From assembly GCF_011250515.1 (NCBI RefSeq), contig NZ_JAANOP010000001.1:434001-498000 (forward strand): a stretch of DNA of 64,000 bases, written 5' to 3'. The translations under genes and the position numbers were made by a program. The stretch's first letter is position 1; every line of letters begins with the position of its first letter. Under the pieces are notes generated by a model. That model was not told the DNA's origin. It saw nothing but the letters and a program-made list of their open reading frames with translations, and did not search any database. The stretch is from Aquirufa ecclesiirivi (GTDB taxonomy: Bacteria > Bacteroidota > Bacteroidia > Cytophagales > Spirosomataceae). Shown piece by piece: positions 2,263 to 58,629 of this stretch.

Positions 2263-4374
2263 TTAGCCCTCGTTTATTTTTTCGAATATCTCTTTTAATT
2301 CTGTGTTAATTTTATCTCTGTGTGATGCCAATTCTTTTATTATTGAATTTTGAAAACTAATAGTGTTGGTTATTCCCATAGATTTAGCTGACAATTCAAG
2401 GAGTTCTTTCCCTGGGAAAAGAGTCAGCCAATCATCTGTTTCAAGTGCAGTTTTTACCTCACTTTCACAATCAGTGATTATTTTTTCAATTGCCACATTA
2501 CTTAATTGTTCGGTTAATGCTTTGTGAATTTCTATTGATGTTTTACTGAATTTTTCTTTTATTAATTTATTTTTATTTGTTTTTATGGTATAGTTGGCTT
2601 TTGTCCCTTCAAAATAGGCCTGCCCATTTAGTACTTTTCCAATAGAAAAATCTTGTGGGTTTAATTTTAAATTTAATCTAAAGCTAATCATATCTCTAAT
2701 TACAGCAGATGAAATATTCAACGCTGTTTTATGAAATATAGATTCGATTTCGTCAATTGTTTTTTCTATATTAAAAATGTCTGACAGAACCGTTTTTATT
2801 GAACTAAAGTCAATAAGATAGTTTTCTAATTCATGCTTTTCTAATACAAATATTTTTCTAGAAGAATGTTCTCTGTACTTGGTTACCATTTCTTTCGTAA
2901 GATAGTCTCGATCTCTAATTAAATAGAAACTTATCCAGGCTAAATTAGATTCCATTATGGAAAGAATAGCATTATTTATCCTGTTCAAATTGTTACTTCC
3001 GTTTGCGGGTATCAATTTGAAATTCGAATTATTACTGAATAACGTGCTGTAAAATTTTCTATCAGGACTAGAGTTGTCGCCTTCAAGAAAAACTAGATTT
3101 TTTGCAACACCTATATAACCAGAAAAACCAAAGAGGTTTTTCAATTGTAAAATTACATCTTGCTCATTGTCTCCCGAAATAAATTTTGCCTTTCTCGAAG
3201 TAAGGTCACGAGTAACGTAAATAACTTTATCCCTACCTGTTTCATCAATTATTTCAGAATTATGAGTAGCCATCCAAATTTGATTCCCTTTCTTTATGCT
3301 CTTTATATTTCTAATCAGGAGGCGTGATAATTCTGGATGAAGATGTAACTCTGGTTCATCAATTACAATAATCGCATTTTCAACATTATGTCGTATAAAA
3401 AAAGATAAGATAAAAAACACTTCTTTTTCGCCTGAAGAAAGGTCATTAAATGTGATTACTTCTTTTGACGGTAATTCGATGAATAAATTTGAAGGTATTG
3501 ATTCGTTTTGGTCTGCAAATTTATAATCAGGAAATAATGTATTTAGTAAGTGTTCATAAGGCTTTATAGGGTCTTCGGGTTCAGTACCTATATTTGCGCC
3601 TTTATTCTTTTGGTTGTGATAATTCCCAAGTTCTCTTAAATAATGATAGCGTTGCTGTACAAGAAATTCATACATGTCTTGATATTGAATTTCACTTGTA
3701 TTGAATGCCATTGTCCATAAATGCTCAGTTCTGTTTACTTCATCAAAGGCAAAAATTTGATTTCTATTGAATCCCTTTTGAGGATAGTTTCGGTCAGCTC
3801 TTAAGAAAAAGCCTAGTGACCTTTTAAGAATGTCTTTAAGTTCTCGAGTTACGTAATTATGTATTTGATTATGAAGTGTTGGATTTTTAGCATAATCTCC
3901 TTCATTAAATTCAAAAGCTCTAAAATAAATGCTGTTTTTGATGAAGTATTCTAGAATGTCATGCTTATGTTTGTGTTGGCGTTTTAATCTTTCTTTTATT
4001 TCTAATCTCTGACGTTCTTTAGTTTCAAGTGTTGAATGGGTATTTGCATCAATTACTTGAATCGCTTCTAAAATTTCTCTTTCAACATTTTCGAGTTCCT
4101 GATTTAAGGATTGAATGATTATGTTTTTTTCATCAGGATTAAGCCCTATTGAAATTTCAAATGAAAAACCAGTAAATGTCCGACTAAGTTGCCAACTAAG
4201 ACTATATGAACTGGAAAGACTATAACCAATTAACTCCAAAACGGAACTTTTTCCACTTCCATTTGGTCCAGCGAATACGATAAGGTCCGAATTTTTATTA
4301 TTAAAGTGAAAAGGCCCTAGCTCCTCATTTTCTAAGTGTCGAAACTTCTTAATTATTATTTTATTTATGTACAT
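2263..4374 (-). CDS. AAA ATPase fused to DUF4435 (TOPRIM-like) domain; merged PARIS-like defence protein
   Basis: This 703-residue protein joins an SMC/ABC-type ATPase to a DUF4435 domain. Walker A is GPNGSGKSS (36-44), a charged coiled-coil insertion spans about 85-145, the ABC signature is SSGEKE (313-318), Walker B is IIVIDEP (335-341), and a switch histidine lies in ATHNSE (369-374). After about residue 420 come FLEGD (Glu431), RDRD (487-490) and HELENYL (514-520), the acidic pattern of OLD/DUF4435 TOPRIM nucleases. In PARIS systems the ATPase (AriA) and DUF4435 effector (AriB) are usually separate and respond to phage anti-restriction proteins; merged forms are known. Its place beside an R-M system fits that role. 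A generic OLD-like protein is the main alternative. Confidence 0.75.
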   Translation of the reverse strand: MYINKIIIKKFRHLENEELGPFHFNNKNSDLIVFAGPNGSGKSSVLELIGYSLSSSYSLSWQLSRTFTGFSFEISIGLNPDEKNIIIQSLNQELENVEREILEAIQVIDANTHSTLETKERQRLEIKERLKRQHKHKHDILEYFIKNSIYFRAFEFNEGDYAKNPTLHNQIHNYVTRELKDILKRSLGFFLRADRNYPQKGFNRNQIFAFDEVNRTEHLWTMAFNTSEIQYQDMYEFLVQQRYHYLRELGNYHNQKNKGANIGTEPEDPIKPYEHLLNTLFPDYKFADQNESIPSNLFIELPSKEVITFNDLSSGEKEVFFILSFFIRHNVENAIIVIDEPELHLHPELSRLLIRNIKSIKKGNQIWMATHNSEIIDETGRDKVIYVTRDLTSRKAKFISGDNEQDVILQLKNLFGFSGYIGVAKNLVFLEGDNSSPDRKFYSTLFSNNSNFKLIPANGSNNLNRINNAILSIMESNLAWISFYLIRDRDYLTKEMVTKYREHSSRKIFVLEKHELENYLIDFSSIKTVLSDIFNIEKTIDEIESIFHKTALNISSAVIRDMISFRLNLKLNPQDFSIGKVLNGQAYFEGTKANYTIKTNKNKLIKEKFSKTSIEIHKALTEQLSNVAIEKIITDCESEVKTALETDDWLTLFPGKELLELSAKSMGITNTISFQNSIIKELASHRDKINTELKEIFEKINEG

Positions 4375-5552: not shown

Positions 5553-5744
5553 ATGTGTCTGTTATAATTACTGCCACCTTGTCTATAACTCCTACTTCAT
5601 TTCGTTTAACCAAACTCTAATAAGCGGTTCCCAATTTATCCCTTTTCATATATAAACTCCTAATCTTACTCATATTTTCCTGCATCATCAAATAAGGCTT
5701 GTCAAATCAAATGCACAACTTATCTATTTTCCCCCCGAAACCCT

Positions 5745-5752
5745 TACATTTG
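5745..5752 (+). promoter_or_regulatory. Candidate -7 promoter element before the PQQ dehydrogenase
   Basis: TACATTTG matches the Bacteroidota -7 consensus TAnnTTTG. It lies 15 bases before the chosen ATG at 5768, implying a very short leader. No good TTTG -33 box is seen at the expected distance, so support is partial. Confidence 0.35.
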
Positions 5753-5767
5753 ACAAAATCCAATCCG

Positions 5768-7861
5768 ATGAAAAAGCTTCTGTTCATGGTGGGGATATCC
5801 ATCCTAGGAATCTTGCTGGGATTTGCCTCTTGGCAAAATCGGATGCGTGTGGATTGGCCTGCCTATCATGGAGGCAATAACCGCAATCATTTTTCTCCTT
5901 TAAAACAGATTAATACTTCCAATGTAAGTCAATTATCCCTCGCCTGGGATTACGATGCGGGCGGGGCGGATACCCTCACCAACGGCACCCAAATACAATG
6001 CAATCCCATCATCATCAACGGGATTTTATACGGTGTTTCTGCCAATACCCAGGCTTTTGCAATAGATGCTAAATCAGGTGTGGAACTTTGGAAGACTAAC
6101 ATCAAGATTAAAACCAATAGTACCACCAGTCGAGGACTAAGCTATTGGTCCAACGGCAAAAAATCACGAATCTTTTTTGGCTATGGAGCCTATTTATTTG
6201 CTTTAGATGCCAAAACGGGCAAAGTCATTCCTAGCTTTGGTCAAGAGGGTAAAGTCAATTTATTATCAGGCATCCAACGGGAAGGATCCGATGAATATGT
6301 GTCTCTCAATACGCCGGTGACCATTTTTAAGAATATCCTGATCGTGGGTACTCGTGTTTCGGAATCTGCCACGGCTCTGTTGGGCGATATCCGTGGCTAT
6401 GAGGCCATTTCTGGGAAATTATTGTGGACTTTTCAAACCATTCCTAGACCGGGACAATTCGGATATGCGACTTGGGAGAAATACAATTATAAAAACCTAG
6501 GGGGCGCTAATAGCTGGATGGGGATGGCTTTGGATGAAAAACGAGGGATTGTCTATGCTCCTACTGGCTCTGCGGCTTTTGATTTTTATGGTGGAAATAG
6601 AAAGGGCGACAATCTTTTTGCCAATTGCCTGTTGGCTTTGGATGCTAGCACCGGGAAAAGGCTTTGGCATTTTCAGACGGTACACCACGACATTTGGGAT
6701 CGGGATATTCCTGCGCCACCCAATTTGTTTTCCTTGACCATTCGGGGAGAGAAGAAGGATGTTGTTTCTGTCTTAAGCAAACAAGGCTTTATGTTTGTGT
6801 TTGATCGGGTCACGGGTAAGCCCATTTTCCCCATCGTAGAAACTCCTTTTCCTGCTTCTGATGTTCCGGGTGAATTGGCATCTAAAACCCAGCCTATTCC
6901 CACTTGGCCAGAGCCATTTACTCGACAAAGTTTTTTCGAAAAGGACATCAATCCTTGGGCTTCCAATTATGAGGATATCAAAAAAGAATTGGCTTTGTCA
7001 AAATCAGGTCATGCGTATATACCAGTGGGTAAGGAGAAAACCATCTTTTTTCCGGGTACGGATGGTGGCGCACAATGGGGTGGGGCAGCAGTAGACGAAC
7101 ATCAAGTGATGTACATACCTGCCAAAGAAAACCCGGTATACACGTCTTTGATCCCCAATACCAAAAGTTTAAAAATGACCACTGCCAGTGTTATTTACGA
7201 GCAACATTGCATGAGCTGTCATGGGCAAAACAAGCAAGGGAATGAAGACGGGTCGATACCTTCTTTGTTACAAATAAAGAAGAAATATACGCTCCATAGT
7301 TTTGTGCAATTATTGAATCAAGGGCGCGGAAGAATGCCTTCCTTGCAGCATATCAGTCAAGAACAAAAAGAAGCGATTTGGTCTTTTCTTCAAGGAGAAA
7401 ATATAGCCGTAAAAGGCATCCTTAATTTGTCCATTTCCGATTATTTGATGACGGGCTATAACCGTTGGTTTGATTCAAAAGGCTATCCGGTCAGTCGACC
7501 GCCTTGGGGCACGCTGACCGCTATCAATATGCATTCGGGAAAAAAATTGTGGCAAGTGCCTCTGGGAGAATATCCAGAATTAATGGCTAAAGGAATACCA
7601 AGAACGGGGACCGATAATTATGGGGGTCCAGCCGTTACGGCCGGTGGATTGGTATTTATTGCCGCTACCAAAGATGAATATATTAGGGCTTTTGATCGGG
7701 CGACAGGGGAAGAGTTATGGCGTTATCAATTACCAGCGGCAGGTTATGCTTCGCCTTCCGTGTATGCGGTGGATGGCAAGCAATATGTGGTCATCGCTTG
7801 TGGAGGAGGCAAGTTGAAAACAAAATCGGGCGACCACTATTTAGCTTTTTCCTTAAATTAG
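5768..7861 (+). CDS. PQQ-dependent quinoprotein dehydrogenase with embedded cytochrome c domain
   Basis: This 697-residue exported protein is a PQQ beta-propeller dehydrogenase of the membrane glucose/alcohol dehydrogenase group. N-terminal residues 1-20 form a hydrophobic signal or anchor, then WPAYHGGNNRNHFSPL opens the propeller, repeated W-motif blades follow (ALDAKTGKVI, ALDASTGKRLWHFQ, AFDRATGEELWRYQ), and TDGGAQWGG is typical of the active-site side. A heme c motif CMSCH lies at 481-485, inside a roughly 80-residue insertion before the last blades, so electrons could pass from PQQ to heme within one chain. I chose ATG 5768, which starts the signal peptide (MKKLLFMVG); an upstream TTG would add 23 hydrophilic residues. 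The sugar or alcohol substrate is not identifiable. Confidence 0.9.
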   Translation: MKKLLFMVGISILGILLGFASWQNRMRVDWPAYHGGNNRNHFSPLKQINTSNVSQLSLAWDYDAGGADTLTNGTQIQCNPIIINGILYGVSANTQAFAIDAKSGVELWKTNIKIKTNSTTSRGLSYWSNGKKSRIFFGYGAYLFALDAKTGKVIPSFGQEGKVNLLSGIQREGSDEYVSLNTPVTIFKNILIVGTRVSESATALLGDIRGYEAISGKLLWTFQTIPRPGQFGYATWEKYNYKNLGGANSWMGMALDEKRGIVYAPTGSAAFDFYGGNRKGDNLFANCLLALDASTGKRLWHFQTVHHDIWDRDIPAPPNLFSLTIRGEKKDVVSVLSKQGFMFVFDRVTGKPIFPIVETPFPASDVPGELASKTQPIPTWPEPFTRQSFFEKDINPWASNYEDIKKELALSKSGHAYIPVGKEKTIFFPGTDGGAQWGGAAVDEHQVMYIPAKENPVYTSLIPNTKSLKMTTASVIYEQHCMSCHGQNKQGNEDGSIPSLLQIKKKYTLHSFVQLLNQGRGRMPSLQHISQEQKEAIWSFLQGENIAVKGILNLSISDYLMTGYNRWFDSKGYPVSRPPWGTLTAINMHSGKKLWQVPLGEYPELMAKGIPRTGTDNYGGPAVTAGGLVFIAATKDEYIRAFDRATGEELWRYQLPAAGYASPSVYAVDGKQYVVIACGGGKLKTKSGDHYLAFSLN

Positions 7862-8286: not shown

Positions 8287-9468
8287 TTATCTTTTCTTTT
8301 TGATTTGATTTTCGAATAAAAATACCCCGTTTTTGTTCGAAATAATGATGTCTGGTTTTTTGTCTTTGTTGACATCCAGCACCGTAATATTTAATCCCGC
8401 TCCCGAGTCTTGATCGATCAAATACTCTTTCCATAAGGGGTCTCTATATTGTTGATTAAACTCTACATAGAAAAGTAAGGCGGGGTCGCTATCCCCTGCA
8501 TCTCGCCCATGATGCGCTAAAAAACGCTTTCCTGTAATGTATTCTTTTCTGCCATCTCCGTTTAAATCGGCCATGATCGATGCATGGGTTTGAGCCGTGT
8601 GCGTACTCATCAAATGAGTTTTAAAGCTGATCTTTCCTTGATTCAATATTTGCTCATGCCACCAAAGTCCCAAAGCATGAGCCGATGCGCTGACGACATC
8701 GTTTCTGCCATCCCCATTGACGTCCATCACTTGCATGTGGGAACAGGCTTCTCCTAGATTCGTCGGATGGAAAGTCCAGTCTCCTGATTTGACATCTTTT
8801 TTACCCTCAAACCAACCTTCACGAATGACCACATCAGCCAAGCCATCCATGTTGATATCTCCCATGCCTATTCCATGCGAGAAACTTTCTGTTCCTGGTA
8901 CTTTTTCTTGACTTAATGCATGTCTTTTCCATTCAGTTTCCCCTTTTTGGGTGGGTGCTTGAAGCCAAACAATTTGCTTTTTGTCTTTGTCTCCACATAA
9001 AATATCCAATCGCCCGTCTTGATCCACATCAATAAAGCCAGGAGATTCATTGCTGATACCCATTCCTTGGGCGATGATGTGTTTGGTCCAACGTTCACTT
9101 TTGTTTTTCGGATTCTCGAACCAAAAACCCGCTTTCCCAGGGAAATCAACGATGACTACATCCTTCCAGCCGTCTAAATTGACATCCAAACAAAGGTTTA
9201 GAAAGGATTCCGAATACTCTTTTCTTGGATCAAAGGTTCTGGACGGGGCCATTTCATGTTTGACCCAATTTGGAGCTTCAAACCAGTAATATCCCGCAAT
9301 AATGTCTATTTTCCCATCTTTATTTAAGTCGCCGGCCGCCACTCCCTCCGAGATAAAATCACCCGTTATTTTCGTTTTCTTAAAGTCGGATGGGGGCTGC
9401 GACTTTAAAGCCAGCATGAAAAATAATAGGAGCAATTCAATGCCTAAAATGGGGATAAATTTTTTCAT
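8287..9468 (-). CDS. Exported FG-GAP/VCBS repeat protein
   Basis: 393 residues with an N-terminal hydrophobic signal/anchor (about 5-22) followed by repeated calcium-loop motifs: DLNKDGKID, DVNLDGWKD, DVDQDGRLD, DINMDGLAD, DVNGDGRND, DLNGDGRKE, DVNKDKKPD. This is the integrin-alpha-like seven-bladed propeller of VCBS proteins, probably at the cell surface or in the periplasm. It starts seven bases after the dehydrogenase upstream of it, so both are likely to be on one transcript. Such proteins accompany exported dehydrogenase and DUF1080 genes in Bacteroidota and Planctomycetota. Binding of a carbohydrate is an inference. Confidence 0.8.
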   Translation of the reverse strand: MKKFIPILGIELLLLFFMLALKSQPPSDFKKTKITGDFISEGVAAGDLNKDGKIDIIAGYYWFEAPNWVKHEMAPSRTFDPRKEYSESFLNLCLDVNLDGWKDVVIVDFPGKAGFWFENPKNKSERWTKHIIAQGMGISNESPGFIDVDQDGRLDILCGDKDKKQIVWLQAPTQKGETEWKRHALSQEKVPGTESFSHGIGMGDINMDGLADVVIREGWFEGKKDVKSGDWTFHPTNLGEACSHMQVMDVNGDGRNDVVSASAHALGLWWHEQILNQGKISFKTHLMSTHTAQTHASIMADLNGDGRKEYITGKRFLAHHGRDAGDSDPALLFYVEFNQQYRDPLWKEYLIDQDSGAGLNITVLDVNKDKKPDIIISNKNGVFLFENQIKKKR

Positions 9469-9475
9469 CGTTGGG

Positions 9476-12334
9476 CTATTTTTGACTCAATACTTTATCC
9501 AATAACATACTCACTTCATGGTTTTCATGGGAATGCCCTAATTTGGATTGTAAATCCTTCAAAGAAGCCATGGCTTCATCCGATTTCAAAGCAGCTACGC
9601 GTTGAATGGTGTAGGTTAAAAACTTGGGCATTTTTGATTTTTGGCCTAATTGAATTGCTCGTTTTACATCCAAAGTAGCCAATGGTTCGGCAGCATACCA
9701 AAGCATCAATGGCAAATTATGGTCTGCTTGATCTTCTGTTTTTTGAACCAATGCATCCAACACATTCCAACGTTGCGCAGGATCCAATCGCAATAAGGCA
9801 GATACTAAATACAGTCGGACCATGGCCGACTTATCCGTGCGAGCCATGGACTCAAATTGACCTAAAATATCAGCGGAAACTTGTTTCTTTTCTGCAACCA
9901 ATTGTATCGCCCAGCTTCGAACATTTTCGTCGGGATTGGTCAATAATTGAGCGACTTCTTTTTCTGTCAAACCTTTTGTCACATGTAAAGTCCATAAGGC
10001 TCTCAATTTTCTAGTCACATCTGGGTTTTTATCGATGATGTTTTTCAAAGCTGCGTGAACTTGGGGATTTGGCCCTCTTTCTTGTAAAATGGTTCTTGCT
10101 TGTAGGACATACCATTCATTGGCATGCAACTGATAATTCACTAAATCCATGTCGGAGGCTTTATGCAAATCCACTTGAACCCATTGATCGTTTTCATGCG
10201 TGATTTTAAAGATCCTTCCCATGGTTTTATCATGGACGTCTGGGTTGGTACTATGGCATTGGTTTTTATCGTACCAATCAATCGCAAAAACGGAACCACT
10301 GGGGTCATATTTGAAGTTGAGCCATTGCGACCAAGCATCATTCATGACAATGAAGTCCTTTTTATGTGAGGCATTGTAGCCCGAACCTTTCCTATTGAGT
10401 TGATCTACGTTTAATCGAGAGCCATTGATGTTGTTCATGAAGATGTTATTTCGGAATTCTTTAGGCCAAGAATTTCCCCCTAAATAAATCATGGCACCTG
10501 CATGCGCATGACCACCTCCAGCGGATGCTGAGCGGAAATTACCCGCATGTGGGCCTCTGTTTCCTACATAATGCCGATGGTCAGCAATGGTCTTGATGTC
10601 TTCGTAGGTGTAAGGATTAAAATGTTTTCCGGCTTGTCGTTCATAACGTGCCCCTTGGATGATGTGGAACATGTGTGGAATCACACAAACCGTAATGAAG
10701 GGATGTCCATAATCGTTGAAGTCGATCCCCCAGGGATTACTCGTTCCTTCTGCAAATACCTCAAACTGATGACTGATGGGATGGAATCTCCACACGCCCG
10801 CATTGATTTTGGTCCGTTCTTGATCGGTGGCGCCCGGTTTTCCCACATTGGAATGGGTAAATACCCCATGATTCCCATATAGCCAACCATCGGGACCCCA
10901 TCGTAAGCTATTGAGTACTTCATGGGTATCATGCACTCCCCAGCCATCCAATAGTTTTTGGACAGGTCCAGTGGGTTTATCCGTTTGGAAATTGGTTGGG
11001 ATGAATAATAGGTAAGGAGCCGCTCCTAACCAAACTCCTCCCATACCCACTTCAATGCCACTGACTAAGTTTAGGCCTTCCATGAAGACTTTTCTTTTAT
11101 CCAAGGTTCCATTTCCATCCGTATCTTCAAAAATTAAAATGCGGTCTTTGCCTTGTCCTTCAGGGGCAGGAACGGGATAGGTATGGCCTTCTACCACCCA
11201 TAGTCTTCCTTTGGCATCAATCGTAAAACTGATGGGACGAACAATGTCAGGCTCTGCAGCCGCTAATTTAATGTTGAAGCCTTTGGGCAAAGTCATGGCC
11301 TCGGCCGCCTTTAAACCTGATAGTCCAGCATTTAGAACAGGATCTAATGGAGGTAGCACAATGATGTCCTTTTGATGCAATTCATTCGGGTAATTAGGCC
11401 GTGTTGCATGGAATTGAAAATTGTCGAAATTGATATGCGCTAATTTATCATGAGCGACGTAAGGAATGGGCGTGATACCCGTTTCATTGTCGATGATGCG
11501 AATGAAGATTTCTTGTTGCCAATAGGGTTTAAGGTTTGCCACAACTGGTTGTAAAGTAGCACGCCCTTGCCCCGTGGAGCGGAAAATGACTTTTTTTGTT
11601 TTTGCGAGTACCAATTCTACTCGTGTGTCTTGTAAGGCACCACCTGAAACCCAAAAACTAGCAAATGGCTGTGTGATTTTAAAGGGGACAGAGGTTAAAG
11701 TACCCGTAAAGGCATAGTTTTTTGTTCCTCCACTCGAGATGAAATGGCTTCCTTCTGGACCAATCTTCATGGTCTTATCATGTACGGGTGAAGGATCTTG
11801 GTCAAAAATAGGATTGGTAAAGGCTTCTCCCTCTGCTTTCCAATCGGCTAAGGTGCCAGATTCAAAATTCAAGTTCAATGTTTTTCCGTTTTTGGACGGG
11901 CGAATACCTTTGACTAATTCATTGCTAATAACACCTTCCACTACTTCAAATTTTCCCACCATGCCAGCTGCTCGGTGACCCGGGATGGAGCAGAAATAGG
12001 TGTCGTTTGATTGGGCAATAAATACAATGCTCGTGCTAGCACCTTTATCTAAAATAGTAGCGCTCTTGATCCCCAGTTTTTCCATGGAAACATCATGCGT
12101 CATTTGTTCCCCATTGACAATCGTAATTCTTACTTTTTTGCCTTTATTGGCTTTTAACGTCGGATTTCTAGTGCCGTCTTTGGAGAAATAACCTAACATG
12201 GTCGCCTCTAAGGTATAGTCAAAGTCGACTTTACTACTATCAGTTTGAGTGAGCATTTTGCTGCTTGCTATGGCAGGATTACCTATAAAAAGACATAGGA
12301 TTAAACCGAGTAAATAGGTAGAAGGCTTCATCAT
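9476..12334 (-). CDS. Exported dehydrogenase-like propeller protein with N-terminal cupredoxin and C-terminal HEAT repeats
   Basis: This 952-residue secreted protein has several domains. Residues 1-24 are a signal peptide. Residues 36-134 form a cupredoxin with a complete type 1 copper site: His80, Cys115, His120, Met125 (C-x4-H-x4-M). Residues about 150-315 form a beta-sandwich, about 345-700 a sorbosone/PVC-type dehydrogenase propeller (RLWVVEGHTYP, RILIFEDTDGNGTLDK), and about 740-950 HEAT-like repeats. Family members usually end in a cytochrome c domain, but no CxxCH is present here, so the copper domain may take its place as electron carrier. It lies in a leftward group with DUF1080 upstream and FG-GAP downstream. 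The substrate is unknown. Confidence 0.85.
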   Translation of the reverse strand: MMKPSTYLLGLILCLFIGNPAIASSKMLTQTDSSKVDFDYTLEATMLGYFSKDGTRNPTLKANKGKKVRITIVNGEQMTHDVSMEKLGIKSATILDKGASTSIVFIAQSNDTYFCSIPGHRAAGMVGKFEVVEGVISNELVKGIRPSKNGKTLNLNFESGTLADWKAEGEAFTNPIFDQDPSPVHDKTMKIGPEGSHFISSGGTKNYAFTGTLTSVPFKITQPFASFWVSGGALQDTRVELVLAKTKKVIFRSTGQGRATLQPVVANLKPYWQQEIFIRIIDNETGITPIPYVAHDKLAHINFDNFQFHATRPNYPNELHQKDIIVLPPLDPVLNAGLSGLKAAEAMTLPKGFNIKLAAAEPDIVRPISFTIDAKGRLWVVEGHTYPVPAPEGQGKDRILIFEDTDGNGTLDKRKVFMEGLNLVSGIEVGMGGVWLGAAPYLLFIPTNFQTDKPTGPVQKLLDGWGVHDTHEVLNSLRWGPDGWLYGNHGVFTHSNVGKPGATDQERTKINAGVWRFHPISHQFEVFAEGTSNPWGIDFNDYGHPFITVCVIPHMFHIIQGARYERQAGKHFNPYTYEDIKTIADHRHYVGNRGPHAGNFRSASAGGGHAHAGAMIYLGGNSWPKEFRNNIFMNNINGSRLNVDQLNRKGSGYNASHKKDFIVMNDAWSQWLNFKYDPSGSVFAIDWYDKNQCHSTNPDVHDKTMGRIFKITHENDQWVQVDLHKASDMDLVNYQLHANEWYVLQARTILQERGPNPQVHAALKNIIDKNPDVTRKLRALWTLHVTKGLTEKEVAQLLTNPDENVRSWAIQLVAEKKQVSADILGQFESMARTDKSAMVRLYLVSALLRLDPAQRWNVLDALVQKTEDQADHNLPLMLWYAAEPLATLDVKRAIQLGQKSKMPKFLTYTIQRVAALKSDEAMASLKDLQSKLGHSHENHEVSMLLDKVLSQK

Positions 12335-12352
12335 AGAGGTAGATAGATTGTT

Positions 12353-12988
12353 TTAAGGTAATTCTTGAATCAGTAAATCTTTTACAGCAACTAGGGCTTT
12401 TCCTCCGCCATGGATTTGTATTCCAATGAATCCGGATTGAGGAATGGAGGCATCCGCTTCGGTATAGTCGACGCTCAAATGACCGTTGATGTATAATTGA
12501 ATTCGATGGTTGATCGCTTTTATTTCATAGTCATTCCAATCATTGATTTTGATCCAAGTCAACACCTCTTGATCATTGGGTTTTACCAAGGTTTTATTCC
12601 TTCTGGATTCATCATATAAGCTAGCCCAATAGTCTTTTCCAAAATCCGCTTGATAACCGATCATCTCGTATGCTGGGTTTTTTAAACGCTGACTACGAAA
12701 TTGAATTCCAGAATTAATAAAGCCTTGGTCGCCTGTCAGTTTGATTTTAAGCTTAAGAATAAAATTCGCATAGGTTTTTTGGGTACAGAGGAAGTTATTG
12801 CGAGGAACGGTGGTTTCTAGGGAACCCCCTACCAGCATGCCATTTTCAATACGCCAAGTATGTAGGGTATCTCCTTCCCAGCCATGGAATGTTTTTCCAT
12901 CAAATAAGGCGACGGTTTTGGGACTTTGTGCCAAACAAAGTGGAATACAGACGAAAGATAGGAATCCTATCCAGATCAATGATTTCAT
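12353..12988 (-). CDS. DUF1080 / 3-keto-disaccharide hydrolase-like protein
   Basis: 211 residues: a signal peptide (1-21), then a concanavalin-like jelly roll with the DUF1080 motifs LFDGKTFHGW (28-37), NSGIQFRS (about 92-99), YWASLYDESRRNK, NDWNDYEI and GFIGIQIHGG. Members of PF06439 act on sugars oxidised at C3, cleaving 3-keto-glycosides by hydrolysis or beta-elimination; others are only presumed carbohydrate-binding. It is probably periplasmic. It ends 18 bases before the cupredoxin-dehydrogenase, so they are likely co-transcribed. Together with oxidoreductases in this window it suggests a 3-keto-sugar pathway; activity is not proven by sequence. Confidence 0.85.
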   Translation of the reverse strand: MKSLIWIGFLSFVCIPLCLAQSPKTVALFDGKTFHGWEGDTLHTWRIENGMLVGGSLETTVPRNNFLCTQKTYANFILKLKIKLTGDQGFINSGIQFRSQRLKNPAYEMIGYQADFGKDYWASLYDESRRNKTLVKPNDQEVLTWIKINDWNDYEIKAINHRIQLYINGHLSVDYTEADASIPQSGFIGIQIHGGGKALVAVKDLLIQELP

Positions 12989-52512: not shown

Positions 52513-54036
52513 TTATAGTCCTTTTTGAAATATTTCTAAGGCTTCTTTATCATCATATTGATGTATCTTTTGTACTAATTGCTTTTTCAAATCGGCAATA
52601 ATTTGCGCATTTTCTTTTTTATCATAGATATTGTTCAAATTTTTCGGGTCTTTTTTGATATCATACAATTCCCAGAAATCTTTAGGTCCATAGAAACGAA
52701 CTAAGGTATATTGAGCCGTTCTTAATCCAAAGTGTGGATAGACATGGTGGGGTTGTGGGTATTCATAGTAATGATAATACGATTCATTCTTCCAGTTTTT
52801 ACCTTGGCCTTTTAACACAGGTAGAAAAGATTTACCTTGAATTTCCGCAGGTACCTTTGTTTGAGCAATGTCCAGTAAAGTAGGAGCCCAATCCACGTTA
52901 GATACGACTTGACTTACTTTAGTGCCGGGTTTGATGGCACCAGGATAACGAATCACAAAGGGAGTTTTTAAAGATTCCTCATATATAAAGCGTTTATCGA
53001 ACCAGCCATGCTCTCCTAAGTAGAAGCCCTGATCGGAAGTATAGACCACGACCGTATTTTTGGCTAATCCCGTTTTATCTAAGTATTCCAATAATTCACC
53101 GATATTTCGATCGAGCGAGTTTGCCGTAGAAAGATAGTCTTTCATGTAGCGCTGGTATTTCCATTCTGCTAGTGCTTTGCCACTGAGTTTTTTCTCATCA
53201 AACTCTTTACTGATTTTATTTTCATAATAGTCATAAAAAGGAGGTCTTTGCTGAGGGGTAAAGCGATTATAATTGCCTCCATCTCCAGGGCCTTCATATT
53301 TACCATGGATTTTTAAATCCTGACTTAGAATCATGGTTTTGTCAATCGTCATGTCCTGATCTTCTGCTGCCAACCTTCCAGCATAATTATCGTAAAATGT
53401 GTCTGGAATAGGGAAAGTCACGTCATCATACGCTCCTAAATCAGGAATGTCGGGTAACCAAGAACGGTGGGTCGCTTTATGGCCAACCACCATGAAAAAT
53501 GGTTTATTGGGATCTCGTTGGTTTAACCATTCTTTTGATAATTGAGTAATGACATTGGTGACATAACCTTCACGTCGGGTAGTTTTATTTTGACTATCTA
53601 CAAAATCAGAATTGTAGTAACTACCATGTCCTGGAAGAATGTTCAAATAATCAAATCCATGAGGTAAAGTCCCTAAGTGCATTTTTCCTACCCAAGCGGT
53701 CTGATATCCGTTTTTTTGTAATTCTTCAGGGAAAACGGCTTGTTCTATGTCGAATTTCTTTTCGTTGAACTTATAGCCATTTTTATGACTGAATTTGCCA
53801 GTCAATAAGGTAGCCCTACTTGGTCCACAAATAGAATTAGTCACTACGTTATTATACAGGATGGCTCCCTCTCTAGCAATGCGATCAATGTTGGGGGTCT
53901 TAGCCAATTTACTTCCATAGGCACTAATGGCTTGGGAAGTATGATCATCCGAAATAATGAAAATGATGTTGGGTTTTTGTTTTGCCTGACCCAAACTATA
54001 AAAGCTAATCAGGAGTAGAATAAGAGATTTTTTCAT
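52513..54036 (-). CDS. Exported type I sulfatase
   Basis: 507 residues with signal peptide (1-18). Metal-binding Asp30-Asp31 opens the alkaline-phosphatase-like fold. The formylglycine motif is Cys70-Gly-Pro-Ser-Arg74 in the context SICGPSRATLLTG, so maturation needs a formylglycine-generating enzyme or anSME, neither of which is in this window. Further motifs are WVGKMHLG (about 116-123) and YTSDQGFYLGEHGWFDKR (about 333-350). It removes sulfate from a polysaccharide, probably periplasmically. It is divergent from the TIM-barrel gene, suggesting one locus. The substrate cannot be named. Confidence 0.95.
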   Translation of the reverse strand: MKKSLILLLISFYSLGQAKQKPNIIFIISDDHTSQAISAYGSKLAKTPNIDRIAREGAILYNNVVTNSICGPSRATLLTGKFSHKNGYKFNEKKFDIEQAVFPEELQKNGYQTAWVGKMHLGTLPHGFDYLNILPGHGSYYNSDFVDSQNKTTRREGYVTNVITQLSKEWLNQRDPNKPFFMVVGHKATHRSWLPDIPDLGAYDDVTFPIPDTFYDNYAGRLAAEDQDMTIDKTMILSQDLKIHGKYEGPGDGGNYNRFTPQQRPPFYDYYENKISKEFDEKKLSGKALAEWKYQRYMKDYLSTANSLDRNIGELLEYLDKTGLAKNTVVVYTSDQGFYLGEHGWFDKRFIYEESLKTPFVIRYPGAIKPGTKVSQVVSNVDWAPTLLDIAQTKVPAEIQGKSFLPVLKGQGKNWKNESYYHYYEYPQPHHVYPHFGLRTAQYTLVRFYGPKDFWELYDIKKDPKNLNNIYDKKENAQIIADLKKQLVQKIHQYDDKEALEIFQKGL

Positions 54037-54201
54037 ACGATTTGTTTCAATGCTTGCCGTGAATTTTTATTTAATGGTTACTAGACGGGAGCTTTGTCTT
54101 GTTATTTTACAGGTTTATGTGGAAAAAATACTGATTTTTTTCGTTTAATTTGGTATACCTATCAACAAATAGGGTCATTTTTATCTTAAAAACACATGTA
54201 A

Positions 54202-55083
54202 ATGAAAAAATTATTTACCTATGGCTTTTTCAGCTTATGTATCAGTCTTTCTTTAGGCGGCTTGGCCAAACTGCCAGATAAATATGTGAATAAAAAATTA
54301 AATATAGTAAAAAAGGCTCCTAAAGATTGGAAGCTTGGAGTCGCACTTTACACATTTAATGGATTTTCCTTTCCAGATCAATTGGCTAAGGCTGACAGTG
54401 CAGGTTTACATTTTATTGAAGGATATACTTTTGGTAAAGCAGGTGCCGCCTTGAAGGATTCAGCGGTGATGAACTTGTCGAAGTCGGGCGTTCGACAACT
54501 GAAACAAATGATTCAAGTGAAGGGTCTCAAAATGGAATCTATTTATTTGGTGGGAGGAAAGACCATTGATCGTTGGAAGAAGGAGTTTGACATAGCTAAA
54601 GAATTAGGAGTCAACTATGTTACCGCTGAGCCTCCTGTTCATTTATGGGATGGAGTAGATAGTCTGGCAGGGATTTATAAAATCAAAGTGGCTATTCACA
54701 ACCATTGGAAAGGAACGAGTGTTTATTGGACTCCTGATTCCCTACTTATTGCGATGAAAAATCATCCCAATTTTTATGCTTGTCCGGATTTAGGTCATTA
54801 TCCTAAAAGTGGCATCAATCCTGTGGATGCATTAAAAAAATTACAAGGGCGTATTATAGCGATTCATTTAAAAGATATAGCTGAATATAATAATCCAAAA
54901 TTGAAGGATGTACCTATTGGAACAGGCGTTGTGAATTTTACGGAGGTTTTTGCGGAGTTAAAGCGACAAGGTTTTCAAGGGAATATTAATATAGAACGGG
55001 ATACCCAAGAGAAACCAAGTAACCTACCTTCGGTTATTCGGTCGGTACAATATTACCGAGAACAAATCAGGCAATTAAACTAA
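54202..55083 (+). CDS. Exported xylose-isomerase-like TIM-barrel protein (sugar isomerase/epimerase family)
   Basis: 293 residues with signal peptide (about 1-22). The AP-endonuclease-2/xylose-isomerase TIM barrel is evident: WKLGVALYTFNGFSFPDQLAKADSAG (about 43-68), GVNYVTAEPPVHLW, IAIHNHWKG, FYACPDLGHYPKSG (about 190-203), IAIHLKDIAEYNN, and the metal Glu in NIERDTQ near the end. The exported location argues against a phosphate-sugar substrate. Relatives in 3-keto-glycan routes act as hydratases or epimerases. It is divergent from the sulfatase. Confidence 0.8.
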   Translation: MKKLFTYGFFSLCISLSLGGLAKLPDKYVNKKLNIVKKAPKDWKLGVALYTFNGFSFPDQLAKADSAGLHFIEGYTFGKAGAALKDSAVMNLSKSGVRQLKQMIQVKGLKMESIYLVGGKTIDRWKKEFDIAKELGVNYVTAEPPVHLWDGVDSLAGIYKIKVAIHNHWKGTSVYWTPDSLLIAMKNHPNFYACPDLGHYPKSGINPVDALKKLQGRIIAIHLKDIAEYNNPKLKDVPIGTGVVNFTEVFAELKRQGFQGNINIERDTQEKPSNLPSVIRSVQYYREQIRQLN

Positions 55084-55177
55084 GCCTCTAAGCTGTTATC
55101 GAAATTTTTATAGCTTTGTTTGGGGCAAATATCATTCCTTTAGGACAATTTATCAACGTATAACAATAGAACACAAT

Positions 55178-55450
55178 ATGGAAAGAATACTCGTACAAAT
55201 TAGTCTTTCAGATAGTGGAATAGAAACGATAAAAAGCACACCCGATTTGCCCAAGAGGGAAATGGAGTTTGTCAATCAATGGAAAGAAAATCAGATTTTG
55301 GAAAGCTTTTTTATTTCAGTTTCAAAAAAAGATGCTGTGTTAATATTTCAATCAATTGATGAAGCTAAGACAAAGGAGCTCATAGAGGCATTACCCTATT
55401 ATCCATACATGTCGAAAGTAGAATACCATCACTTAAATAAACAATTTTAG
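55178..55450 (+). CDS. Small hypothetical protein (YCII/muconolactone-isomerase-like fold)
   Basis: 90 residues with a ferredoxin-like pattern: MERILVQISLSD strand, REMEFVNQWKENQILESFFISVSKKDAVLIFQSIDEAKTKELIEALPYYPYM. It resembles YCII-like or muconolactone delta-isomerase-like proteins, but no catalytic residue can be assigned. TAGAACAC ends four bases before its ATG, matching a word seen twice elsewhere. Confidence 0.6.
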   Translation: MERILVQISLSDSGIETIKSTPDLPKREMEFVNQWKENQILESFFISVSKKDAVLIFQSIDEAKTKELIEALPYYPYMSKVEYHHLNKQF

Positions 55451-55554
55451 TTGTTAGGATTTTTGAAATTGTAGCCAAGGCCTGAATGAAATCAGGGTAG
55501 TCAATGGTAATTTTTTACGCAAATACATCCAAATTACACAAGTAAGATGAACCA

Positions 55555-56061
55555 ATGAAACGAAGAAAGCTTTTGCAATCCATAGCCCTTTCAGCAGGAG
55601 CTCTGGTAGTTTTACCCAGCTGGGCACAAGGCTGGAGTCGAGAACAAATAGTTACGAATCAAGTATTTCAGCTAGAAGAAAAGGAGATGCTCCGACTAAT
55701 AGCGGGAACCTTCATTCCGGAAGGAACATCCAAAGGAGCGAACGGGGTTGGAGTGGAACTTTTTCTTGATAAACTATTTAGTGATTGCTATACGATGGAG
55801 GACCAAAATAAGCTTAAAGCAGCCATCAAAGCTTTATCCTTACAAGCGGATTTAAATCACCATTTGGCATTTGGGGCATGCAGTGCTGCGCAGCGAGAAG
55901 GACTATTACTGGATTTAGAGAAGTCGGCCGAGCACCTATGGGCTTATACCATCTTAAGGTCAGAAACGATACGGGGCTATACAACTTCTGAGTATGTATT
56001 GACGGAACATTACCATTATGTCATGGCCCCAGGTTTTTACCATGGCTGTGTAAACGTATAA
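55555..56061 (+). CDS. Gluconate 2-dehydrogenase subunit 3-like protein (glucoside-3-dehydrogenase small subunit)
   Basis: 168 residues with a Tat-like signal: KRRKLLQSIALSAGALVV then a cleavage region PSWAQGW. The remainder is the helical gluconate_2-dh3 domain (EEKEMLRLIAGTFIPEG about 40-56, and ETIRGYTTSEYVLTEHYHYVMAPGFYHGC at the end). In LacABC-type glucoside 3-dehydrogenases this subunit accompanies a GMC flavoprotein and is needed for export or activity. Three bases separate it from the GMC gene, so the pair is a complex. Confidence 0.85.
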   Translation: MKRRKLLQSIALSAGALVVLPSWAQGWSREQIVTNQVFQLEEKEMLRLIAGTFIPEGTSKGANGVGVELFLDKLFSDCYTMEDQNKLKAAIKALSLQADLNHHLAFGACSAAQREGLLLDLEKSAEHLWAYTILRSETIRGYTTSEYVLTEHYHYVMAPGFYHGCVNV

Positions 56062-56064
56062 TTT

Positions 56065-57768
56065 ATGGCCAATTTGAATCTAAGTATAGCTAAGAAAAAT
56101 ACCTATGATGTCATCGTCATAGGATCAGGTGCCAGTGGAGGCTGGGCTGCTAAAGAGTTTTGCGATCGGGGTTTAAAGACCTTGGTTTTGGAACGGGGCA
56201 GGCAGGTAAAGCATGTAGAAGATTATCCCACGGCTTCTAAAGCACCTTGGGAATTTGAGCATCGTGGTACGGTAAGCTTGGCCGACAAGCAAGGTTTTTC
56301 TGCCAGTGGGTTTATGCGAGAAGAAACCAAGCATTGGGCATTGCCAGATGATGAGCAACCTGTTGTGTATGAAAAACCGTTTCGATGGACTAGGGGATAT
56401 CATGTGGGAGGAAAGTCTTTATTATGGGCTAGGCAAACCCAACGCTGGTCGGATTTTGATTTTGAGGGACCTATTCGTGATGGATTTGCAACAGATTGGC
56501 CGATTCGGTATAAAGACATAGAACGGTGGTATGATCATGTAGAGAAGTTTGCTGGTATAGCGGGTTTTAATGATAACTTGGCGGAACTTCCCAATAGCAT
56601 CGTTCAGCCGGGATTTGAATTAAATTGTTTGGAACAACATCTTAAAGAAACGTTAACGAAAGCTTATGGTAATCGTTGGGTTATTTCTGGTCGCTGCGCT
56701 CACTTAACCGATCCTCAAGAAATCCATTTACAGCAGGGACGAGGCCGTTGTTTGAGCCAGCGTCAATGTAATCGAGGATGTAATTTTGGTGGATATTTTA
56801 GTAGTAATGCTTCCACTTTGCCATGGGCTGCAAAAACAGGAAATCTAACATTGCGTCCACATTCGGTTGTGCATTCCATTATTTACGATGATAAAAAAAA
56901 TAAAGCCATAGGGGTCAATGTGATAGATGCCACTAGTCATGAGATGATTCCTTTTTTTGCCAAAGTGATTTTTGTTAATGGCTCTACCATCAATACCAAT
57001 GCCATTCTTCTTAATTCTAAGTCGAATCGTTTTCCAACTGGATTGGGGAATGATTCTGGTTTACTAGGAAAATTCATTGCTTGGCATAATTACCGTGGTT
57101 CGGCCAATGCGAGTTATGATGGCTTTAAAGACAAAAAGACCGAAGGAGGCAACCCAAGTAATGCCTATATTCCTAGATTTAGAAATGTAAAACGTCAGGA
57201 AACGGATTTCTTACGGGGCTATGCGGTGGGTGTTGGTGGAGGTAGAGGAGAATATTCCAAGCAAACGGGCATAGGTGATACCTTACGAGATAACTTATTG
57301 AGTCGACAATGGGGCAATTGGAATATATCAGCTTGGATGATGGGAGAAACAGTTCCTACGGAGCAAAACCACATCCGTCTGCACTCCGATTTGACAGATA
57401 AATACGGTATACCACAGATTGTATTCTCTTGTGACTGGACGGAAAATGATGTCAAAATGGTCAAGGATTTTAGAGAGCAAATGCAAGAAATGTTCGAAAA
57501 AGCAGGTTTTCAGCATATCAGAACAGCCGATTCCAAATCGGCACCTGGCGCTGATATCCATGAAATGGGCGGCGTACGCATGGGGAAGAATCCTAACCAT
57601 TCATTATTGAATGAATGGAATCAGTTACATACCTGCAAAAATGTATTTGTCACCGATGGTGCCTGCATGACATCAACAGGGACACAAAATCCCACCTTAA
57701 CATTCATGGCATTAGCAGCTCGTGCGGCGAATCATGCGGTGGATGAATTGAAGAAAAAGAACTTATAA
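56065..57768 (+). CDS. GMC oxidoreductase, probable glucoside/sugar 3-dehydrogenase large subunit
   Basis: 567-residue FAD protein. The dinucleotide site is VIVIGSGASGGWAAKEF (15-31) with LVLERGRQ. GGKSLLWARQTQRW (about 112-125) and the C-terminal GACMTSTGTQNPTLTFMALAARAA are typical of GMC enzymes; MGGVRMGKNPNHS near 505 includes the region before the catalytic His/Asn pair. It has no own signal and should leave the cytoplasm with the Tat-bearing small subunit. It probably oxidises the C3 hydroxyl of a glycoside. The next gene starts 12 bases later. Confidence 0.9.
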   Translation: MANLNLSIAKKNTYDVIVIGSGASGGWAAKEFCDRGLKTLVLERGRQVKHVEDYPTASKAPWEFEHRGTVSLADKQGFSASGFMREETKHWALPDDEQPVVYEKPFRWTRGYHVGGKSLLWARQTQRWSDFDFEGPIRDGFATDWPIRYKDIERWYDHVEKFAGIAGFNDNLAELPNSIVQPGFELNCLEQHLKETLTKAYGNRWVISGRCAHLTDPQEIHLQQGRGRCLSQRQCNRGCNFGGYFSSNASTLPWAAKTGNLTLRPHSVVHSIIYDDKKNKAIGVNVIDATSHEMIPFFAKVIFVNGSTINTNAILLNSKSNRFPTGLGNDSGLLGKFIAWHNYRGSANASYDGFKDKKTEGGNPSNAYIPRFRNVKRQETDFLRGYAVGVGGGRGEYSKQTGIGDTLRDNLLSRQWGNWNISAWMMGETVPTEQNHIRLHSDLTDKYGIPQIVFSCDWTENDVKMVKDFREQMQEMFEKAGFQHIRTADSKSAPGADIHEMGGVRMGKNPNHSLLNEWNQLHTCKNVFVTDGACMTSTGTQNPTLTFMALAARAANHAVDELKKKNL

Positions 57769-57780
57769 AACAAAATACAT

Positions 57781-58629
57781 ATGAAAACGAATCGATTGAT
57801 GCTTGTCCTTTTGGGAATTGGACTTAGTTTGGGAGCTTATGCTCAGAAAATTTATACCTATCCCTTGGGAGTACAAGCCTACACATTTAGAAAGCAATTT
57901 CCTCAGGACCCACTAAAAACATTGGATGTTATCAAAGGTATGGGCTTTACCGAATTAGAAGGTGGTGGCGCTAAGGGAATGACATTGCAAGAGTTTAAAC
58001 AACAATGCGACGCAAGAGGTATTTCTATTCCATCTACTGGAGCCGATTTTGGGGAATTAGAGAAGGATCCTATGGCGGTAGTTCAAAAGGCAAAAGTCTT
58101 AGGGGCTAAATTTGTCATGTGTGCTTGGATTCCTCATAAAGGGAATGACTTTACCTTAGAAGATGCTCAAAAGGCAGTGAATGTATTTAATAAAGCGGGT
58201 AAGGTTTTGAAAGAAAATGGAATAACGCTATGCTACCATGACCATGGATATGAGTTTCATCCCTTTGAGAAAGGAACTTTATTGGATTACATCATTCAAA
58301 AGACGGATCCAGCCTATGTTTCTTTTGAAATGGATGTCTTGTGGACTTTACACGGTGGCGGAGAAAAAATGCCGGTCAAATTGTTGAAGAAATATCCTGG
58401 TCGCTGGAAATTGATGCACGTCAAAGATTTGCGCAAAGGTGTTGTTGGTGATTTAACGGGGCATACGCCTGCCATCAATGATGTTCCTGTAGGAACAGGT
58501 CAAGGTAACTGGAAAAAAATCATTCAATTGGGTAAAAAAGCAGGAGTGGAGCATTGTTTTATAGAGGACGAAAGCGACAATGAAATGGTCAATGTACCCT
58601 TAAGTGTTCAATACTTGAAATCTTTATAA
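57781..58629 (+). CDS. Exported xylose-isomerase-like TIM-barrel protein
   Basis: 282 residues with signal peptide (MKTNRLMLVLLGIGLSLGAYA). The TIM barrel has LGVQAYTFRKQFPQDPLKTLD (about 30-50), CYHDHGYEFHPFEKG (about 151-165), FEMDVLWTLHGGG (about 182-194), HVKDLRKGVVGDLTGH and FIEDESDNE near the end; His, Glu and Asp residues here form the usual metal site. Third gene of the operon with GMC and its small subunit. Homologues work on keto-sugars or inosose. It ends at a terminator shared with the receptor gene. Confidence 0.85.
   Translation: MKTNRLMLVLLGIGLSLGAYAQKIYTYPLGVQAYTFRKQFPQDPLKTLDVIKGMGFTELEGGGAKGMTLQEFKQQCDARGISIPSTGADFGELEKDPMAVVQKAKVLGAKFVMCAWIPHKGNDFTLEDAQKAVNVFNKAGKVLKENGITLCYHDHGYEFHPFEKGTLLDYIIQKTDPAYVSFEMDVLWTLHGGGEKMPVKLLKKYPGRWKLMHVKDLRKGVVGDLTGHTPAINDVPVGTGQGNWKKIIQLGKKAGVEHCFIEDESDNEMVNVPLSVQYLKSL

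Follow-up and report, generated by a model that had tools for sequence, protein, structure and literature searches.

Can an exported flavoprotein pair and the barrel protein encoded directly behind it oxidize and cleave a glycoside by themselves, or do they depend on proteins encoded elsewhere? This question is raised by one locus in a 64,000-nucleotide stretch of the Aquirufa ecclesiirivi genome (the window; contig C11:434001-498000 of the 3.12 Mb genome labeled G000). A preliminary description had joined a GMC oxidase pair, two TIM-barrel proteins, a distant DUF1080 protein, and a sulfatase in one periplasmic 3-keto-glycoside pathway, with DUF1080 as the cleaving enzyme and a barrel as hydratase. 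We assign the parts differently. With a probability of about two in three, 55555-58629 encodes a compact periplasmic module that oxidizes and then eliminates glycosides, the GMC flavoprotein acting at C3 and the barrel TIM2 carrying out the elimination; the DUF1080 protein and the sulfatase are not required. The argument begins with four genes (E values are those of the Pfam matches):

54202-55083, + strand: TIM1, a xylose-isomerase-like barrel (AP_endonuc_2, E 1.5e-19)
55555-56061, + strand: the small subunit (Gluconate_2-dh3, PF13618, E 3.4e-20)
56065-57768, + strand: the GMC flavoprotein (GMC_oxred_C, E 2.8e-21)
57781-58629, + strand: TIM2, a xylose-isomerase-like barrel (AP_endonuc_2, E 3.1e-11)

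In the mechanism that we propose, the small subunit would export the GMC flavoprotein through the twin-arginine translocation (Tat) pathway, and the flavoprotein would oxidize a beta-glycoside at C3 to the 3-keto-beta-glycoside, with electrons passing from flavin adenine dinucleotide (FAD) through a probable Fe-S cluster to an external acceptor. TIM2, exported separately, would polarize the ketone with Mn2+ while His155 abstracts the H2 hydrogen; the aglycone or leaving sugar would be expelled, and a 2-hydroxy-3-keto-glycal would remain. Such an elimination route to 2-hydroxy-3-keto-glycal has been proposed for AtOGE, a barrel enzyme of Agrobacterium (PMC10628242). Hydration and reduction would come later, catalyzed by the products of other loci. 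Gene order with its conservation, fold, and active-site residues are computed results; C3 regiospecificity, beta-elimination activity, metal identity, periplasmic location, and the electron acceptor are inferred.

Gene order and conservation

The small subunit, GMC, and TIM2 genes follow one another with intergenic gaps of 3 and 12 bp. TIM1 is set apart from them by a 0.47 kb spacer that holds a 90-aa open reading frame (ORF; 55178-55450, +), which leaves small subunit-GMC-TIM2 as the tight unit. The corresponding spacer measures ∼100 bp in five Aquirufa-type loci (L011-L015). The 90-aa ORF itself has a weak muconolactone isomerase-like match (E 0.0011, under the Pfam cut-off). A 19-base stretch 5′ of the small subunit (55491-55509, +) is retained with small changes in the Aquirufa-type loci; it has no other exact copy in the genome, and searching with 3 mismatches gave 6 further matches vs. 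3 for the reversed control. One -7-like box lies at 55111, among 68 such boxes across the window, and an Rfam scan of the window at gathering scores returned no match.

Relatives of the GMC flavoprotein were collected by scanning named genomes, the best 80 of 300 being used as external loci, and a quick tree was built from 129 GMC proteins of these loci and of the A. ecclesiirivi genome itself. The window GMC falls within a clade of 29 rows (Shimodaira–Hasegawa-like approximate likelihood ratio test, 99) and is 95% identical to the GMCs of Aquirufa nivalisilvae and A. beregesia; members of the clade include Balneolota (L029, L036) and one metagenome-assembled genome labeled Pseudomonadota (L035). 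The small subunit lies directly 5′ of the GMC gene in all 29 clade loci, and TIM2 lies directly 3′ in 24 of the 28 with downstream sequence (L037 ends early). Elsewhere among the external loci, L050, L052, L054, L055, L061, and L087 (labeled Chitinophagales/Bacteroidetes) carry 3–7 clustered GMC genes beside a small subunit.

A survey of the family covered 61 genomes, counting TIM2 matches at E ≤1e-40 and GMC matches at E ≤1e-200; each was found in 59 of them. For 19 of the 21 GMCs with at least 64% identity among the matches listed, the best TIM2 match was within ∼420 bp (coordinates read manually), the exceptions being G043 and G047. No one partner recurred in most of the TIM2 regions away from this GMC (31 in other genomes and 1 in A. 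ecclesiirivi). Two families, k62 and k63, each flank TIM2 in 4 loci, and k62 looks by eye like a formyltetrahydrofolate deformylase; at L161 and L169, the neighborhood scan marked no TIM2, in contrast to the search of whole genomes, which had located one at each. TIM2 homologues (29–33% identical) also occur where GMC and DUF1080 genes cluster in Pedobacter, Flavobacterium, and Niastella.

Predicted activities of TIM2 and the flavoprotein

TIM2 starts with a Sec-like signal; signal peptides, both Sec-like and Tat-like, were called by eye without a prediction program. The AlphaFold model of TIM2, made from an alignment of 30 sequences, has a mean predicted local distance difference test score (pLDDT) of 93.2. 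Foldseek ranked 8tcd first with this model (E 2.4e-17), 8tcr third, 8tct fourth, and 8bvk seventh. By its PDB title, 8tcd is the Alistipes 3-Keto-beta-glucopyranoside-1,2-Lyase AL1; 8tct is BT1 of Bacteroides thetaiotaomicron, and 8bvk is AtOGE. The VIA structure comparison gave Z 27.7, root-mean-square deviation (rmsd) 2.1, and 32% identity over 234 aligned residues for AL1; Z 26.9, rmsd 2.3, and 234 aligned for BT1; and Z 23.6, rmsd 2.3, and 212 aligned for AtOGE. A profile of 30 TIM2 homologues matched BT1 at 3.6e-62, AL1 at 5.6e-62, and AtOGE at 2.1e-41.

In AtOGE, the metal (Mn) is held by His132, Asp163, His189, and weakly Glu233, and His134 is catalytic, with H134A inactive (PMC10628242). 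These residues align with H153, D185, H213, E262, and H155 of TIM2, and all five are unchanged across the 30 homologues aligned. The mapping was obtained by aligning AtOGE to the barrel of locus L077 and transferring the positions to TIM2 through the homologue alignment, and the VIA end pair 264/235 is consistent with it. The full lyase residue set of TIM2 reads E60, H153, H155, E183, D185, W188, H213, and E262 (EHHEDWHE); AL1 and AtOGE share its HxH pair and Trp188. Because TIM2 combines a lyase-like fold with the metal-binding residues and the catalytic His known from AtOGE, oxidation and elimination by small subunit-GMC-TIM2 alone are possible. From the model and these alignments, we predict that TIM2 is an exported Mn-dependent 3-keto-beta-glycoside 1,2-lyase (beta-eliminase).

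Of the 21 Pfam barrels (20 above the cut-off) encoded in the A. ecclesiirivi genome, the TIM2 profile matches 10 at E 1e-3 or better; within these 10, the full EHHEDWHE set occurs in 4. The three besides TIM2 (C2:54537, C34:154460, and C11:79183) are located away from the operon.

The small subunit begins with MKRRKLLQ, a Tat-like signal, and RR is found inside the first 40 residues in all 29 clade rows. No signal was seen in the GMC flavoprotein itself, which we infer is carried across the membrane by the small subunit. The Tat-type pair of the preliminary description is thus present, as intact ORFs with Pfam matches, and its tandem of GMC and Gluconate_2-dh3 subunit is as in LacABC-type glycoside 3-dehydrogenases. 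The closest PDB relatives of the GMC are the large subunits of fructose dehydrogenases (4.5e-29), followed by glucose dehydrogenase, and pyranose oxidases match its C-terminal part only. All 129 rows have Cys229, Cys235, and Cys239 (C-x5-C-x3-C) and His499. Asn542 is present in 91 of the 100 rows outside the clade and in 27 of the 29 inside it, the other 2 having gaps. The Cys triad aligns with CCGNNNCMPIC of fructose dehydrogenase (8k6k), a motif that we take to be the 3Fe-4S cluster site in fructose and glucose dehydrogenases; His499 is presumably the catalytic His of the active site. Given this triad of FAD dehydrogenases, a dehydrogenase that uses an external acceptor is a likelier reading of the GMC than an O2 oxidase, and the Cys motif lends no support to the earlier label of oxidase. 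We predict an FAD/Fe-S glycoside dehydrogenase, putatively acting at C3.

The Rhizobium glucoside 3-dehydrogenase passes its electrons to a mono-heme cytochrome c (PMC9915066), and the A. ecclesiirivi genome has 19 Cytochrom_C matches. When 23 stretches of this genome, in sets of 18 and 5, were compared with the cytochromes encoded in the clusters of L069, L076, and L077, no clear acceptor emerged; the matches were weak (25–45% over 33–104 aa), the top one reaching E 3e-11 (a 120-aa frame on C31).

Several observations weigh against the assignment of oxidation and elimination to these three genes. As to linkage, 4 of the 28 clade loci (L028, L029, L033, and L035) lack TIM2 directly downstream, with one slightly later in L029. 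Of the 59 family genomes in which TIM2 was matched, 40 have their best match apart from this GMC type, and TIM2 is therefore not tied to it. At L165, L176, L178, and L183, the TIM2 homologue adjoins an unrelated Tat-signal FAD-oxidase-like gene, k63 (by eye sugar-lactone oxidase-like). The window GMC also shares only 44–47% identity with the GMCs that Pedobacter, Flavobacterium, and Niastella have in their DUF1080 clusters, and no cytochrome c gene is found among the ORFs of 52513-58629, unlike in LacABC. As to the barrel, BDI_3400 (3obe), a Parabacteroides protein with no stated function, ties with AL1 (Z 27.8); BT1 has Gln at the position of TIM2 Glu183; and we take the lyase identity of AL1 and BT1 from their PDB titles alone. 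A member of the TIM2 family could act chiefly as a hydratase. As to the flavoprotein, its closest PDB relative is a fructose dehydrogenase, so that oxidation at C3 is putative.

The points on the barrel bear on an alternative in which TIM2 is a glycal hydratase or a 3-keto-sugar isomerase/epimerase and cleavage falls to another barrel or to a DUF1080 protein elsewhere. The Agrobacterium operon encodes two barrels, the eliminase AtOGE and a tentative hydratase (PMC10628242); YcjR, a 3-keto-glucoside 4-epimerase, has the same fold; three other barrels of the genome share the identical residue set; and the unannotated 3obe is level with AL1. The nearest named structures are nevertheless lyases, with YcjR well behind AL1 (Z 20.6 and 13% identity), and the HxH pair and Trp188 agree with AL1 and AtOGE. 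We consider this alternative unlikely.

The kinship with fructose dehydrogenase would suit a GMC pair that oxidizes sugars or polyols (as a fructose-, glucose-, gluconate-, or inositol-type dehydrogenase) without any relation to C3 chemistry, with TIM2 acting on its product, for instance an inosose. TIM2 does show a weak similarity to the NCBIfam myo-inosose dehydratase IolE (45 bits, cut-off 290), and IolE structures score Z 23–24 with its model. The TIM2 profile matches IolE at 2.3e-15, far below the lyases, and the TIM2 homologue is present in the DUF1080-bearing clusters of related GMCs. Such a role is very improbable, and we retain the prediction of C3 oxidation followed by elimination.

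DUF1080, the sulfatase, and TIM1

Two further genes of the window had been drawn into the pathway and, like the four above, are intact ORFs:

52513-54036, − strand: a sulfatase (SGSH_C by Pfam), divergent from TIM1
12353-12988, − strand: a DUF1080 (3keto-disac_hyd) protein (Pfam E 2.7e-33)

The DUF1080 protein has a Sec-like signal, and its gene sits 41,214 bp from TIM1 on the opposite strand. The genome has 16 DUF1080 matches, 15 of them above the cut-off, in 13 ORFs (two with two matches each), and the chance of some DUF1080 lying equally near a random point is 0.29 (13 ORFs) to 0.33 (15 matches). All 61 family genomes carry DUF1080, with 3 to 26 matches each, and mere co-occurrence is therefore uninformative. 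We built a hidden Markov model from the DUF1080s of this genome and related ones and searched the fetched flanks of the external loci with it; DUF1080 was present in 0 of the 28 orthologous clade loci vs. 11 of the 52 other GMC loci. The p value of this difference (Fisher, 0.007) is only indicative, since the species are related, the loci come from the best 80 of 300, and their lengths vary (4 to 22 kb, with means of 17.4 and 18.2 kb).

The DUF1080 loci of Pedobacter, Flavobacterium, and Niastella also carry Gfo/Idh proteins, transporters, further barrels, and the TIM2 homologue, and most have a small cytochrome c. L052 and L054 (Chitinophagaceae) combine DUF1080 with several GMCs, and both have copies 58% identical to the window GMC that belong to a neighboring clade of 25 rows. 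Both loci speak against a clean split. Within the A. ecclesiirivi genome, the GMC closest to the Pedobacter cluster GMC is a LacA-like protein at L108 (G000:C31:53000-72900; 63% identity to L077), encoded with a small subunit and a gluconolactonase-like gene. A DUF1080 gene lies 8 kb off, past apparently unrelated genes, and its product is 50–56% identical to the cluster DUF1080s. If any DUF1080 here works with a GMC, this pair on C31 is the likelier one.

A single pathway in which the GMC pair oxidizes C3, the DUF1080 protein of the window cleaves, the barrels hydrate, and a sulfatase is joined to them can appeal to the presence of that protein in the window, to the 11 GMC loci with DUF1080 (among them those of Pedobacter, Flavobacterium, Niastella, L052, and L054), and to fitness support for LacABC with DUF1080 in Caulobacter (PMC9007349). 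Against it stand the 41 kb and opposite strand, a placement that chance alone readily allows, the 0 of 28 orthologous loci, the ubiquity of DUF1080 in the family, and the presence of the lyase residues in the TIM2 barrel. We regard it as quite improbable. We rejected DUF1080 12353-12988 as an operon partner because it is distant, on the other strand, one of many copies, and missing from the orthologous loci. After this gene, on the same strand (8287-12988, −), come genes for a PVC-type heme-binding protein with a plastocyanin-like domain and for an FG-GAP protein, which are perhaps its real partners.

Close relatives of the sulfatase (91–97%) are found near the operon only in L011-L015; those of L027 and L037, also close to the operon, are 25–26% identical to it. 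On this distribution, we rejected it as an operon partner.

TIM1 is a second exported barrel with EHHCDHHE at the lyase positions, that is, Cys and His at the equivalents of 183 and 188. Lacking the Glu/Gln183 and Trp188 equivalents, it was rejected as a second AL1/AtOGE-type lyase. Its model (pLDDT 78.6; 12 sequences) is nearest to BDI_1903 (3p6l; no stated function, Z 30.9), and the top structural matches are Parabacteroides barrels with no stated function, then many isomerases and epimerases; TIM1 is a candidate isomerase/epimerase or hydratase-like protein. Among the fetched loci, it adjoins the core only in L011-L015. Relatives of TIM1 (E ≤1e-25) occur in 20 of the 61 family genomes, and in 8 neighborhoods inspected, neither the GMC nor the small subunit of the window was matched by any ORF (E 1e-10). 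TIM1 probably lies outside the core operon.

The preliminary description therefore had the chemistry about right and the assignment of parts wrong. Its broad idea of an exported route of C3 oxidation and elimination with a barrel partner is borne out by the lyase and AtOGE matches of TIM2 and by its intact active site. Both barrels are real, and TIM2 directly follows the GMC gene; TIM1, beyond its spacer, is probably not part of the core. The DUF1080 gene exists and its pathway link falls, and the bond-cleaving candidate is the TIM2 barrel rather than DUF1080. Nor is the joined sulfatase supported: it is divergently oriented, and its arrangement with TIM1 was seen in L011-L015 only.

Elsewhere in the window, 5699-7861 (+) encodes a pyrroloquinoline quinone-dependent dehydrogenase with a cytochrome c domain, another sugar/alcohol oxidation system, and 2263-4374 (−) encodes an AAA_15/AAA_21 ATPase that looks OLD-like and matches DUF4435 weakly.

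Relation to known systems and significance

The chemistry proposed here is already known from AtOGE and, by their PDB titles, from AL1 and BT1. AL1 (8tcd/8tcr) and BT1 (8tct) resemble TIM2 in fold, HxH pair, and metal-site residues (29–32% identity over 234 residues). Here, unlike for AL1 and BT1, the lyase-like barrel is encoded directly 3′ of a Tat-signal GMC pair; the partner oxidoreductases of BT1 in B. thetaiotaomicron are, we assume, of the Gfo/Idh type.

The GlycDH-AtOGE system of Agrobacterium (8bvk; PMC10628242) likewise joins a flavoprotein C3 dehydrogenase to a Mn barrel beta-eliminase, with catalytic residues identical to those of TIM2. Its operon encodes four enzymes, including a second oxidoreductase and two barrels, whereas the operon here has no reductase, and some residues of the lyase set are missing from the first barrel, TIM1.

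The GMC dehydrogenase of LacABC acts in the periplasm, and a periplasmic 3-keto route with DUF1080 has been proposed for Caulobacter and Pedobacter (PMC9007349). The LacABC-related Pedobacter clusters contain Gluconate_2-dh3, GMC, and a TIM2 homologue at the end, as here. Unlike LacABC with DUF1080, the A. ecclesiirivi operon has neither a cytochrome c nor a DUF1080 gene, and its GMC is 46–47% identical to the Pedobacter cluster GMCs. What sets it apart, judging from its sequence, would be the compact combination of a Tat-type GMC and an exported lyase-like barrel. Our literature searches recognized no description of a small subunit-GMC-TIM2 operon, which is not proof of absence.

More tentatively, with the odds somewhat against it, the operon may be a minimal self-contained periplasmic oxidize-eliminate glycosidase of Bacteroidota and Balneolota, one that replaces glycoside hydrolases on beta-glycosides without DUF1080 and passes electrons to respiration via a shared carrier. 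Its three genes would then provide a simple system for studying glycan cleavage driven by oxidation, and E-H-H-E-D-W-H-E could serve as a first filter for probable lyases among barrels annotated merely as sugar phosphate isomerase/epimerase. If the proposal is true, many Bacteroidota would cut glycosidic bonds outside the cytoplasm with a respiratory dehydrogenase and a metal lyase in place of a glycoside hydrolase, and prediction based on glycoside hydrolases would overlook such operons.

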